From Candidatus Nitrosotalea bavarica (GTDB lineage: Archaea > Thermoproteota > Nitrososphaeria > Nitrososphaerales > Nitrosopumilaceae), in NCBI RefSeq assembly GCF_900167955.1, contig NZ_FUYK01000003.1:124001-188000 (forward strand): a stretch of DNA of 64,000 bases, read 5' to 3'. The notes under the pieces are model-generated. The model saw only the letters and a program-made list of their open reading frames with translations, searched no databases and had not been told where the DNA came from. Positions within the stretch are counted from its first letter, which is position 1, and each line of letters opens with the position of its first letter. Of the stretch, positions 21,432-24,842 are shown in pieces. The position numbers and the translations under genes were made by a program.

Positions 21432-23315
21432 TTGGAAAAATCCAAGTGGGTTACAGGAGGATACACCCAAAGATTATCAAATCAAGAAAACATGTGTTGT
21501 TTTTCACATAGTATTTTAAGAAGAAACCCCATCTTGAGTCAGATGCAAGTTTTCAAAGAGGAAAAATGGGTTCTAAGTGAACTTGTAAAAGATTCAGATT
21601 CGCCCCAATTTACTAAGCGCCTTAATGCCATACAATTAGATGTCAAAAATTTTGAAAAGAATAAGAAAATTCTCAAACCTACATTAACTGAAAAAAAATT
21701 TCTTTCTATGCTTCATACTTTAGAAAATATAACAGAAGATTTTAGCAGTGTTTCAGGATACGCTTCTTTAGAGTACTCAGTAGATACCCAGTCTGACAAG
21801 GCAACGGCGTTGCTTTCAAAGATGCGAAAGTTGGGGGCACAACTAGAGAATCAGACTTTATTTTTCGACCAATGGTGGAAGAAACAACTTGATGAGAAAA
21901 ATGCTCAAAGATTAATGAAATCAGCAGGAGAGTTGCATGAATTTTTACGATACAAAAGATTACTTGCAAAATATTCCCTTACTGAACCAGAAGAGAGAAT
22001 AATTAACACATTAGATGTTACGGGCCACTCTGCCCTTGTCAAAATCTATGACAAGATAACAAATGCGTTTGTGTTTGAAGTGAAAATAGACGGCAAGACC
22101 AAGAAATACAATAGAGAGGAATTATCAGTTCTAATTCGAAATCCAAAACCAAGAACAAGAGAGATCGCATACAAGGCACTATTATCTGAATTTGACAAAA
22201 ACAAGGGAGTCCTAGGAGAAATTTATCAAAATATAGTTTCAAACTGGAAAGATGAATGCATTCAGATACGAGGATATGCATCGCCAATATCAGTTCGAAA
22301 CATCGGAAATGACGTGGATGACAAGACAGTAAATGCGCTTCTTTCTGTTTGTAAGAAAAACTCGGATGTATTTCGAAAGTTCTTTTTGCAAAAAGCACAC
22401 ATTTTGAAAATGAAAAAGTTACGGAGATATGACATTTATGCACCAATTCAGAAAAAAGAAGAAAAAAGATATAGCTATGACAAGGCGGTAAAACTAGTTC
22501 TTGAGACTCTAAATGATTTCAGTCCGAAACTAAGCGAGTATGCCAAGAGAGTATTTGTTCAAAGGCACGTGGATTCTACTATCAGACCAGGAAAGAGAAG
22601 CGGTGCATTTTGCAGTACAATATCTCCAAAGATAACACCATATGTCATGGTAAATTTCAAGGGTAGGACCAATGATGTCTTTACTTTGGCTCATGAGATT
22701 GGTCATGCAATACATAGTATCGCAGCCTCTGACAAATCAATATTCATAGCAGAAGCCCCATTACCACTAGCCGAGACAGCTTCGACGTTTTCAGAAATGC
22801 TATTGTTCAACAAGATTCTCGATCAAATATCCGAAGACGAACAACAATCTAGACTCATGGAACACTTGGATGACTTGTATGCAACAGTAGGACGACAGGC
22901 ATACTTTACACTATTTGAGATAGCGGCACATGAAAAGATTGGCAATGGGGCAATGGTCCAAGACATAACATCAGAATACATGAAGACATTAAAAGATCAG
23001 TTTGGTAATTCTGTAGATATTACTCCAGACTTTGGAACTGAATGGACATGCATCCCACACTTTTACCATTCACCGTTTTACTGTTATTCCTACTCTTTTG
23101 GAAACCTACTCTCTTTGTCATTATACCAGAGATACAGAAAGGAGGGAAGATCATTTGCCTCTACATATGTAGATATTTTAGCTGCTGGAGGTTCAAAAAA
23201 GCCAGAAGACCTGCTCAAGGAACATGGAATAGACATAACATCTGAAAGTTTCTGGCAAGAAGGTTTTGAGTATATCAGAAATCAAACAGAACGACTTGGA
23301 AGAGTAATTAATTAA
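21432..23315 (+). CDS. pepF: M3 family oligoendopeptidase (PepF-like)
   Basis: 627 residues. A cytoplasmic zinc metallopeptidase that degrades peptides of moderate length. The zinc motif HEIGHAIHS is near residue 420 with the third ligand in EAPLPLAETAS about 25 residues on. The N-terminal half is the helical oligopeptidase domain (starting WVLSELVKD, matching the family's WDLSEL). The frame opens at TTG 21432, but the family homology starts around residue 38, so ATG 21492 or ATG 21543 may be the true start. It stands alone. Confidence 0.92.
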   Translation: MEKSKWVTGGYTQRLSNQENMCCFSHSILRRNPILSQMQVFKEEKWVLSELVKDSDSPQFTKRLNAIQLDVKNFEKNKKILKPTLTEKKFLSMLHTLENITEDFSSVSGYASLEYSVDTQSDKATALLSKMRKLGAQLENQTLFFDQWWKKQLDEKNAQRLMKSAGELHEFLRYKRLLAKYSLTEPEERIINTLDVTGHSALVKIYDKITNAFVFEVKIDGKTKKYNREELSVLIRNPKPRTREIAYKALLSEFDKNKGVLGEIYQNIVSNWKDECIQIRGYASPISVRNIGNDVDDKTVNALLSVCKKNSDVFRKFFLQKAHILKMKKLRRYDIYAPIQKKEEKRYSYDKAVKLVLETLNDFSPKLSEYAKRVFVQRHVDSTIRPGKRSGAFCSTISPKITPYVMVNFKGRTNDVFTLAHEIGHAIHSIAASDKSIFIAEAPLPLAETASTFSEMLLFNKILDQISEDEQQSRLMEHLDDLYATVGRQAYFTLFEIAAHEKIGNGAMVQDITSEYMKTLKDQFGNSVDITPDFGTEWTCIPHFYHSPFYCYSYSFGNLLSLSLYQRYRKEGRSFASTYVDILAAGGSKKPEDLLKEHGIDITSESFWQEGFEYIRNQTERLGRVIN

Positions 23316-23385
23316 AGCGCCTGGCAGTCAAGCGCCCCCAACTGCCAGGCAATGTTCCCCTACGGTTTGAACCGATGTCAAGGAT
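23310..23385 (-). ncRNA. Candidate structured non-coding RNA
   Basis: A conspicuously GC-rich island between two AT-rich genes. It contains a perfect 10-bp stem (GCCTGGCAGT 23319-23328 with ACTGCCAGGC 23341-23350, loop of 12) and a second small hairpin (CGGTT 23363-23367 with AACCG 23370-23374). On the minus strand a good TATA box (TTTAAATTATAA, 23398-23409) predicts a start near 23378, and the long hairpin is followed by TTTAATTAATT, a plausible termination tract. It contains a tRNA B-box-like GGTTCAAACC, but no cloverleaf can be folded. No ORF fits. The boundaries are estimates. Confidence 0.42.
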
Positions 23386-23439
23386 CCTACGCACGCATTA
23401 TAATTTAAACCTAGAGTTTAGATCGAGAACTTTTATTTT

Positions 23440-23616
23440 ATGAGAACCATCAATGCACGAGTGAAATATCCAAGATGCTGCAATAGAGAACCAGAATATT
23501 TGGTAACTTATGACTGCGGACCTGATCCACAACAGACCATGTTGGTTTGCAAGTATCATTACAAGGAAGAGCCTTTTCAGAGATTCGCAATAAAGATAGA
23601 AAAATTACGAGAATAA
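23440..23616 (+). CDS. Zinc mini-protein (58 residues, CxxH tail)
   Basis: From ATG 23440 to TAA 23616. C13 and C14 (PRCCN), C26 and the C37-H40 pair (LVCKYHYKEEP) provide zinc ligands. The CKYHYKE stretch resembles CKEHYKE in the protein at 19772, suggesting a small paralogous family. A TATA-like TTTAAACC (about 23404-23411) lies about 30 bases upstream, shared back-to-back with the promoter of the minus-strand RNA candidate. Function unknown. Confidence 0.68.
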   Translation: MRTINARVKYPRCCNREPEYLVTYDCGPDPQQTMLVCKYHYKEEPFQRFAIKIEKLRE

Positions 23617-23648: not shown

Positions 23649-24842
23649 ATGAAAAACCTGCTTACATTATCTATAATTTTCTCATTATTGCTGACTTCGT
23701 TTGTTTCAGTCTATGCACAACAACCACAACTTGCATCATACCGTGAAACAGCCAACATACTAATCGATGAAAAAATACAGAATCAGACTAGTGCGTTTAT
23801 CACATTGGCATCTACAAGCCCAGTAGAAATGAGAGTCCCTCCAGATCTTAGTGAAAAGATTACAAATACTGCCAATGTTACTTCGGTAGTAATAACAAAT
23901 GCAGATACATGTGTAATAGGAGTTACGAAGGACCAAGGATGTGTCATAATAAACATAGTTTCCCCAGCGCTTATTGAGACTTACAACATTACAACGATTC
24001 AAACACAGGCTAAACAAGTAGGTGACACTTTGATTAATAGCATTAACAAGGCATTTGCTACTGATGCAACATTTTGGCTTACTTATGTTAATCCAAAAGG
24101 AGAACTCAACAAGGCTCTTGGTACATCCGGAATCATATCAGGAAACAGAACCATATCGGTTGTATATACAATGTCAAGACCAGATTCGTCATATCTTTTT
24201 GACGGATTAACATCCATTTTAATTCCAAAACAAATTCGTGATGATGGTGGATTTTTTGATGCAGCCCAAAAGATGGCGCAAGATTCCAATTCTTCAGTTA
24301 CATTTGTAATCACTCCAGGACAAGGATCATCACTTTATCAGTTACAGGTCTCAAAACACATTCCAATCAAGGGCAAAGTAACTACAGTTAATCCACTAGA
24401 GTTGCTAGGAGTTGACAAACTTGAAAGATCAAGTTATTATAGTATTGGTTTCTTTCCTTTGAATTCCATTCTACAAGTCACAGCAATATCTAATGATACT
24501 ATTGCAGTAACAAGTCATGGTGGAGATTTAGCCCCTACTACAATCAAAGACGGTCAAAAGTTTCCAACAGACCTAACTAAAGCAGGCTGGATAATCGACC
24601 CAGAGTACGGAAATAGAATTTCTGCAATATACCTATTTGGAACAACAACGTCGTTTACAGGCAATCAATCTTCATTGACATTAGGTAGTGCGCCAGTACA
24701 GAGTCAATCCACACAAACCAACACCACAACTATATCTGCAACACCAAGTGCAAAATCTTCCAATGATTATTCCACTTATGCTTTAATTGGCATAATTGCA
24801 GCAGGTGGAGCTGCAGTATACATATTCATGAAAAGAAGATAA
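23649..24842 (+). CDS. Cell-surface protein with signal peptide and C-terminal anchor
   Basis: 397 residues. A signal peptide (1 to about 23, ending VYA) is followed by a large extracellular part with many potential N-glycosylation sequons (NQT, NVT, NIT, NRT, NSS). A Ser/Thr/Gln-rich linker (about 340-368) leads to a C-terminal transmembrane helix (about 372-392) ending in KRR. This is the tripartite layout of a wall- or membrane-anchored surface protein. It lacks the PEFG-type sorting motif, so processing by the archaeosortase at 52005 is not indicated. Family unknown to me. Confidence 0.8.
   Translation: MKNLLTLSIIFSLLLTSFVSVYAQQPQLASYRETANILIDEKIQNQTSAFITLASTSPVEMRVPPDLSEKITNTANVTSVVITNADTCVIGVTKDQGCVIINIVSPALIETYNITTIQTQAKQVGDTLINSINKAFATDATFWLTYVNPKGELNKALGTSGIISGNRTISVVYTMSRPDSSYLFDGLTSILIPKQIRDDGGFFDAAQKMAQDSNSSVTFVITPGQGSSLYQLQVSKHIPIKGKVTTVNPLELLGVDKLERSSYYSIGFFPLNSILQVTAISNDTIAVTSHGGDLAPTTIKDGQKFPTDLTKAGWIIDPEYGNRISAIYLFGTTTSFTGNQSSLTLGSAPVQSQSTQTNTTTISATPSAKSSNDYSTYALIGIIAAGGAAVYIFMKRR

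Follow-up and report, generated by a model that had tools for sequence, protein, structure and literature searches.

Background

Among the described systems closest to the small RNA reported here, the yeast snoRNA snR190 pairs in domain V near the peptidyl-transferase centre (PTC) and is reported to serve as a placeholder rather than as a methylation guide (PMC8536666). The present RNA resembles it, as well as the other eukaryotic chaperone snoRNAs (U3, U14, snR10 and snR30), in being a small RNA that would likewise pair with pre-rRNA. However, snR190 belongs to the box C/D RNAs and its pairing partners are helix 73 and domain I, whereas the present RNA has no boxes and is complementary to helix 89 and the catalytic ring, and chaperone action has been demonstrated for snR190 but is only proposed here. 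A chaperone role has also been put forward for archaeal box C/D sRNAs, whose targets form hotspots around the PTC according to two reports (PMC7994747, PMC4644070); in the main text of each, as far as accessible, the names Thaumarchaeota and Nitroso- have 0 occurrences. These sRNAs share antisense pairing to rRNA with the present RNA, but the latter has no C or D box where one would be needed, contains a single hairpin and is preceded by its own TATA promoter.

Some features recall H/ACA RNAs instead, as the first antisense element lies 3' of looped-out rRNA and the next one 5' of it, and an ACA triplet is conserved. However, a pseudouridylation pocket is absent, the antisense motifs lying 5' of one continuous hairpin with no stem between them; the loop-out is 5 nt and not 2 nt, and in the alignments the ACA sits 5' of the hairpin and not 3' of it.

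Another archaeal RNA, rancRNA_s194 of Haloferax volcanii, is intergenic and about 100 nt long, associates with the 50S subunit and influences translation in vitro (PMC6104027, accessible part). It shares with the present RNA an intergenic archaeal origin and a tie to the 50S subunit, which is predicted in the present case; it belongs to another lineage, its site is not given as PTC base pairing in that part of the report, and the two are likened by description, not by sequence. One 'conserved noncoding RNA with 93% identity to N. maritimus' is noted in the description of the N. limnia genome (PMC3043068), and it may be the present RNA, RNase P RNA or SRP RNA. No description of this RNA of ammonia-oxidising archaea (AOA) was found in the open-access literature that was searched.

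The locus and its predicted transcript

The locus was found in a 64,000-nucleotide stretch of Candidatus Nitrosotalea bavarica DNA, the whole of which is referred to below as the window. The GC content of positions 23320-23399 is 0.575, compared to ~0.31-0.44 in most neighbouring segments, and the GC-rich block with a perfect 10-bp hairpin noted in a preliminary description of this DNA is indeed present. An 84-nt stretch read on the minus strand had a folding energy of -33.9 kcal/mol (z -2.9; 1 of 200 shuffled sequences equal), whereas the plus strand of the same stretch folded more weakly (-23.1 kcal/mol, z -1.6). As the minus strand thus folds better than shuffled sequences and the plus strand barely does so, the minus strand was taken to be the structured one.

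In minus-strand order, the promoter element TTTAAATTATAAT is followed by a 17-nt spacer, the block GACATCGGTTCAAACCGTAGGGGAACA (23379-23353), the hairpin and the T-rich sequence TTTAATTAATT. The T-rich end had been described as correctly placed for a minus-strand transcript and is found there; in most relatives it reads TTTAAT or TTTTAAT. The length of the transcript, first given as about 70 bases, is better stated as about 65-70 nt, from ~23379 to ~23310, with both ends predicted. The tail of the RNA (to ~23310) overlaps the last codons and the stop of the M3 peptidase open reading frame (ORF). The features are listed in the table below.

Table. Predicted features of the small RNA gene and its convergent neighbour, in window coordinates
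Feature	Position	Strand	Remarks
TATA/BRE promoter element TTTAAATTATAAT	23397..23409	-	Distance from the start of TTTAAA to the first conserved RNA base, 30 nt
Small RNA, about 65-70 nt	23310..23379	-	Conserved block from 23379; predicted +1 at 23379; both ends predicted
Motif A, GACAUCG	23373..23379	-	Complement of 23S rRNA C2501-C2507 (E. coli numbering)
Motif B, UCAAACCG	23363..23370	-	Complement of 23S rRNA C2488-G2495 (3' strand of helix 89)
Motif C, GGGG	23357..23360	-	Complement of 23S rRNA C2483-C2486
AACA joint between core and hairpin	23353..23356	-	Unpaired with rRNA in the duplex model
Long hairpin	23319..23350	-	10 perfect bp; 14-15 if G-U pairs are counted
T-rich 3' end TTTAATTAATT, presumed terminator	23305..23316	-	Overlaps the end of the M3 peptidase ORF
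M3-family oligopeptidase, convergent neighbour, outside the RNA	21432..23315	+	PF01432, E 1.8e-49

A second hairpin, proposed at 23363-23374, exists in the window as a 4-bp hairpin, but its fold is not kept in the relatives, which read ATTCAAACCG, CTTCAAACCG or ACCAAACCG where the window has GGTTCAAACCG. The 5' side varies freely among lineages, and a conserved helix at this position was rejected. According to the alignments, the segment belongs to the conserved core, in which the sequence and not the fold is conserved.

Two further ORFs lie on the plus strand beyond the promoter element. The first (23440-23616), divergent from the RNA gene, encodes a Cys-rich product of 58 aa (CC, C, C, H) and has no Pfam match; short homologous ORFs adjoin the RNA in several genera of the Nitrosopumilaceae, although not in all. 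The second (23649-24842) encodes a 397-aa protein with a signal-like N terminus, a C-terminal segment resembling a membrane anchor and no Pfam match; among 25 representatives of the Nitrosopumilaceae, 20 have a homologue upstream of the RNA.

Distribution among archaea

A DNA search was positive in 32 of the 37 genomes of the genus, including 19 of 19 good genomes, and, with an E threshold of 0.1, in 59 of 200 family genomes. Two covariance models were used, R1 made from 29 sequences and R2 from 51 sequences. In the window's own genome the only true copy matched by the covariance model (G000:C11:147301-147379) corresponds to window positions 23301-23379, and a second match is the same hairpin in reverse reading. 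A covariance search over the relatives, which the preliminary description had suggested as a check, found the RNA widely: R1 matched 211 of 250 Nitrosopumilaceae genomes (125 of the 131 good ones and 21 of 22 genera), and many Nitrososphaeraceae genomes matched in a sample of the order, in which the total of 202 out of 300 genomes includes 13 weak matches outside both families. These 13 are chance-like, and those that were read had no promoter and a broken core. The second family (f8), which we infer to be Nitrososphaeraceae, carries the core TACATCGACCAAACCGAWGGGGAACA and hairpins that have changed freely but remain paired.

Families of the order beyond these two gave weak matches (f5, f6, f7, f9, f10, f11, f13, f14 and f17; E 2e-4 to 0.09) that had neither a promoter nor a full core and were rejected, as were four further R2 matches (L144, L146, L150 and L155) with the same deficiencies. 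Searched with R2, six genomes of f2 and two of f3, both AmoA-positive families, gave nothing below E 0.28, and nothing solid was found in the other families of the order that were sampled. In a sample of the phylum, R2 matched 49 of 300 genomes, two of them weakly (G561 and G650, E 0.001-0.006).

A scan with the core pattern returned at least 119 named stretches, all titled archaeal, and 0 matches in viral contigs. Among the pattern matches listed, nearly all are from Nitrosopumilus, Nitrosarchaeum, Nitrosotalea, Nitrosopelagicus, Nitrososphaera, Nitrosocosmicus, Cenarchaeum or Thaumarchaeota. One genus of the Nitrosopumilaceae (g5; G040 and G061, ~0.8 Mb) has AmoA and an intact 23S site and no detectable copy of the RNA, an apparent loss.

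Promoter

Of 174 distinct copies, 169 have a TTTAAA that starts 29-32 nt upstream of the first core base, and the remaining five carry CTTAAAT or ATAAAT at the same position. The chance that TTTAAA begins in a given 4-nt stretch of the window is 0.002, and the spacer between the TATA element and the core is not conserved. The claim that the RNA has its own minus-strand promoter is thus borne out by the presence of the element and by its fixed spacing. Archaeal TATA boxes are centred ~26-27 nt upstream of +1, which would therefore place +1 at the G or U before ACAUCG.

Covariation in the hairpin

Compensatory change in the hairpin, which the preliminary description had named as a further check, was found. 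In an alignment of 29 sequences 97.8% of the helix cells are paired, 9 of 11 pairs have changed on both sides and 0 of 500 shuffles did equally well; when the partner strand was slid by one to three bases, pairing fell below 44%. The 51-sequence alignment, which was fitted to the covariance model and is thus biased towards it, contains 151 cells with a compensatory change and has 96.8% of its cells paired (0 of 500 shuffles equal), with a covariation score of 0.795 compared to at most 0.144 when slid. The sequence of the hairpin is free to vary and its pairing is kept.

The tip of the hairpin is GTGCGT or ATGCGT in many Nitrosopumilaceae; Nitrosotalea and the genera close to it have GGGCGC. 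Several genera of the Nitrosopumilaceae carry a CCCC 3' of the hairpin, which could pair with the GGGG of the core and so act as an internal competitor for rRNA pairing. The Nitrososphaeraceae have neither this type of GTGCGT/ATGCGT tip nor a CCCC after the hairpin.

The conserved core and its complementarity to 23S rRNA

The 5' part of the RNA is a nearly invariant core of ~27 nt, in which three motifs (A, B and C) hold 17 conserved bases. Motif C is GGGG in 173 of 174 copies and is followed within 3 nt by ACA in all 174, counts which overstate the invariance because 119 of the stretches underlying these copies were picked by an exact core pattern containing GGGGAACA. In alignment A3, the 51 rows of which were picked by model, CAAACCG and CATC are each present in 51 of 51 rows and the preceding A in 50 of 51.

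The core was compared to the 16S-23S regions of four genomes from both families, and one best site was obtained, 23S 5'-CCCC-G-CGGUUUGG-UACCU-CGAUGUC-3'. Counted from the GGGAUAACAGG motif (A2451), we take this site to be E. coli 2483-2507, a segment made up of the 3' strand of helix 89 and the bases C2501-U2506 of the peptidyl-transferase ring. The RNA would pair with it as GACAUCG, (U or C)CAAACCG and GGGG (7+8+4 bp), with G2487 and U2496-U2500 of the rRNA looped out in the duplex model. The three paired segments are exactly the motifs A, B and C, which had been defined by conservation, and follow in the same order. The preliminary description had proposed no function, and this complementarity is new here.

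In all four genomes the best duplex fell on the same 23S alignment columns, with an energy of -28.8 to -32.5 kcal/mol (-32.4 in Nitrosotalea), and 0 of 30 shuffled cores equalled it in each of the four. In a larger control, 2 of 300 shuffled cores and 1 of 300 genomic 27-mers reached the same energy, a chance of ~1 in 150 to 300 for energy alone. When all 17 conserved bases had to find their exact complement in the right order (6+7+4, gaps of at most 8 nt), 3 of 300,000 shuffles and 0 of 35,994 25-mers of the window did so. Cofolding of the RNA with the 23S site gave -69.2 kcal/mol, compared to -29.6 and -20.5 kcal/mol for the two separately, and produced exactly the 7+8+4 duplex; in the free RNA the core is predicted to be only partly open. 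Complementarity to this one rRNA site is therefore strongly supported by the sequence comparisons. Extended complementarity to rRNA beyond chance, as looked for in a chaperone RNA, was thus found.

The 23S site was read in 24 genomes, among them that of the window, and has the same sequence in 23 of them; the exception, a genome from outside the order, has a single differing base. The pattern did not locate the site in G258, and no 23S match was obtained for G190. Because the site is invariant, the pairing is not provable by covariation between the RNA and the rRNA, and because it is also present in archaea without the RNA, including genus g5, the RNA is not universally needed. A mimicry of the 5' strand of helix 89 was considered and rejected, as that strand is CUCGUCGCGGG and unlike the core.

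The changes seen in the core are mostly neutral with respect to the predicted pairing. The first base of motif B is U or C, both of which pair with G2495, a change from A to G in motif A of one copy gives a G-U pair, and the lengths of the linkers, whose sequence is variable too, vary solely opposite the two unpaired rRNA stretches. The pair with C2507 is lost in all 44 copies of the Nitrososphaeraceae type, which have U for G at the first core base, and genus g9 (G044) has GGGU in motif C while its own 23S rRNA still reads CCCC, so that one end pair is lost without compensation. The core also resembles an antisense 23S sequence in which AGGTA is shortened to 1-4 nt and C is replaced by 2-3 nt, and an origin from an antisense 23S fragment is therefore possible.

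Comparison with known RNA classes

The preliminary description had assigned the RNA to no known family, and the searches agree with it. Rfam 15 gave no match at the gathering score, either in the window or in seven other loci. A relaxed scan (E up to 5) yielded only four chance-level matches, the best with 14.6 bits against a gathering score of 53, and ARAGORN detected no tRNA or tmRNA. A box C (RUGAUGA) within 75 nt was found in 0 of 184 readings, 10 of which are antisense-23S readings, and CUGA (box D or D') in 0 of 184 within the first 30 nt, which hold all the antisense motifs.

Possible functions

Comparison of the copies shows the gene, its promoter, its structure and its phylogenetic range, and a conserved and undescribed small-RNA gene almost certainly exists at this locus. 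Transcription from its own TATA promoter would yield an RNA of ~70 nt with a largely open 5' core, a hairpin that would protect and terminate the RNA, and a U-rich tail. The core would pair with 23S positions 2483-2507 through the three short helices, and this pairing with the PTC is probably the function of the RNA. Such a duplex would occupy one entire strand of helix 89 together with bases of the active-site ring, which are folded otherwise in the finished 50S subunit. As the duplex is incompatible with the mature helix 89 and catalytic ring, a role as a placeholder on the pre-50S particle is the most likely one. In E. coli the folding of the PTC ends with helix 89, on which assembly factors act (PMC11260487); on this basis and on the precedent of snR190, binding to the pre-50S particle and shielding of the site are proposed. 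The RNA would keep the strands from misfolding until their late folding and would then be displaced, and a protein may bind at the constant ACA. We thus favour, with some reserve, a box-less assembly chaperone or placeholder for helix 89 and the catalytic ring, in which binding in the cell, the stage of assembly and the chaperone action are all putative.

The main rival to an assembly chaperone is a translation off-switch, in which the RNA would invade or block the PTC of the finished 50S subunit under stress and lower protein synthesis. The same 23S complementarity would suit this role, and the haloarchaeal rancRNA_s194, with its 50S binding and its effect on translation in vitro, is a loose precedent; however, s194 is not described as pairing with the PTC in the accessible part of its report (PMC6104027), and in the finished subunit the strands to be paired lie buried within helix 89 and the catalytic ring and would have to be unfolded. 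We regard this role as unlikely. Still less probable is a guide for the modification of the looped-out U2496-U2500 (or G2487) by an unknown enzyme outside the C/D and H/ACA systems. In the duplex model a 5-nt unpaired stretch of the rRNA does lie between two antisense helices, and C2498 is a modified base in E. coli, but the lack of box C and CUGA in all 184 readings, together with that of a pseudouridylation pocket and a 3' ACA, argues against a guide, as does the linker on the RNA side, which varies between 1 and 4 nt and would be unusual for a catalytic guide.

An open 5' seed, a 3' hairpin and a U tail make up the anatomy of many regulatory RNAs, and the present RNA, with its open conserved 5' seed, could accordingly be a trans-acting antisense RNA on mRNAs, with the 23S match secondary or coincidental. 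However, when motifs B and C were searched at fixed spacing with at most one mismatch in 32 genomes, using a pattern with two bases between the motifs that is blind to the 23S site (one base there), only the RNA's own genes and scattered sites at the level of a reversed-pattern control were found. With a chance of ~1e-5 for the 23S match, and with a 17-base core frozen across two families that fits an invariant target better than mRNAs, an action on mRNAs seems improbable. The element could, lastly, be mainly a terminator or another DNA element of its neighbours without an RNA function of its own. A homologue of the M3 peptidase is convergent with the RNA in 24 of 25 Nitrosopumilaceae representatives, and the hairpin could end the M3 mRNA too, a possibility already raised in the preliminary description. 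It fails in the second family: a phmmer search with the M3 protein gave no match among 87 neighbour ORFs of 21 Nitrososphaeraceae loci, and core, promoter spacing and compensatory hairpin persist there beside different genes. The RNA is therefore not an appendage of the M3 gene, an M3 terminator does not explain the family, and an invariant 17-base core would not be needed by a terminator; this explanation is very improbable.

Taken at its widest, the assembly-chaperone reading or its off-switch rival would make this RNA a third kind of rRNA-pairing RNA beyond the C/D and H/ACA RNAs, namely a promoter-driven and terminator-ended sRNA of AOA that would hold the PTC open by a three-part antisense core, as a dedicated assembly factor or an off-switch. 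This proposal is a tentative one.

Conclusions

Ammonia-oxidising archaea rank among Earth's most abundant organisms, and the regulatory and housekeeping RNAs known from this group are, to our knowledge, few. An RNA gene that is conserved across two large families of these archaea and absent from Rfam is already a useful annotation. Should its pairing with helix 89 and the catalytic ring prove true, the RNA would act as a box-less helper, or blocker, dedicated to the active site of the ribosome in a prokaryote, and would give a testable handle on the archaeal maturation of the PTC, which is poor in protein and the last region to fold in bacteria.
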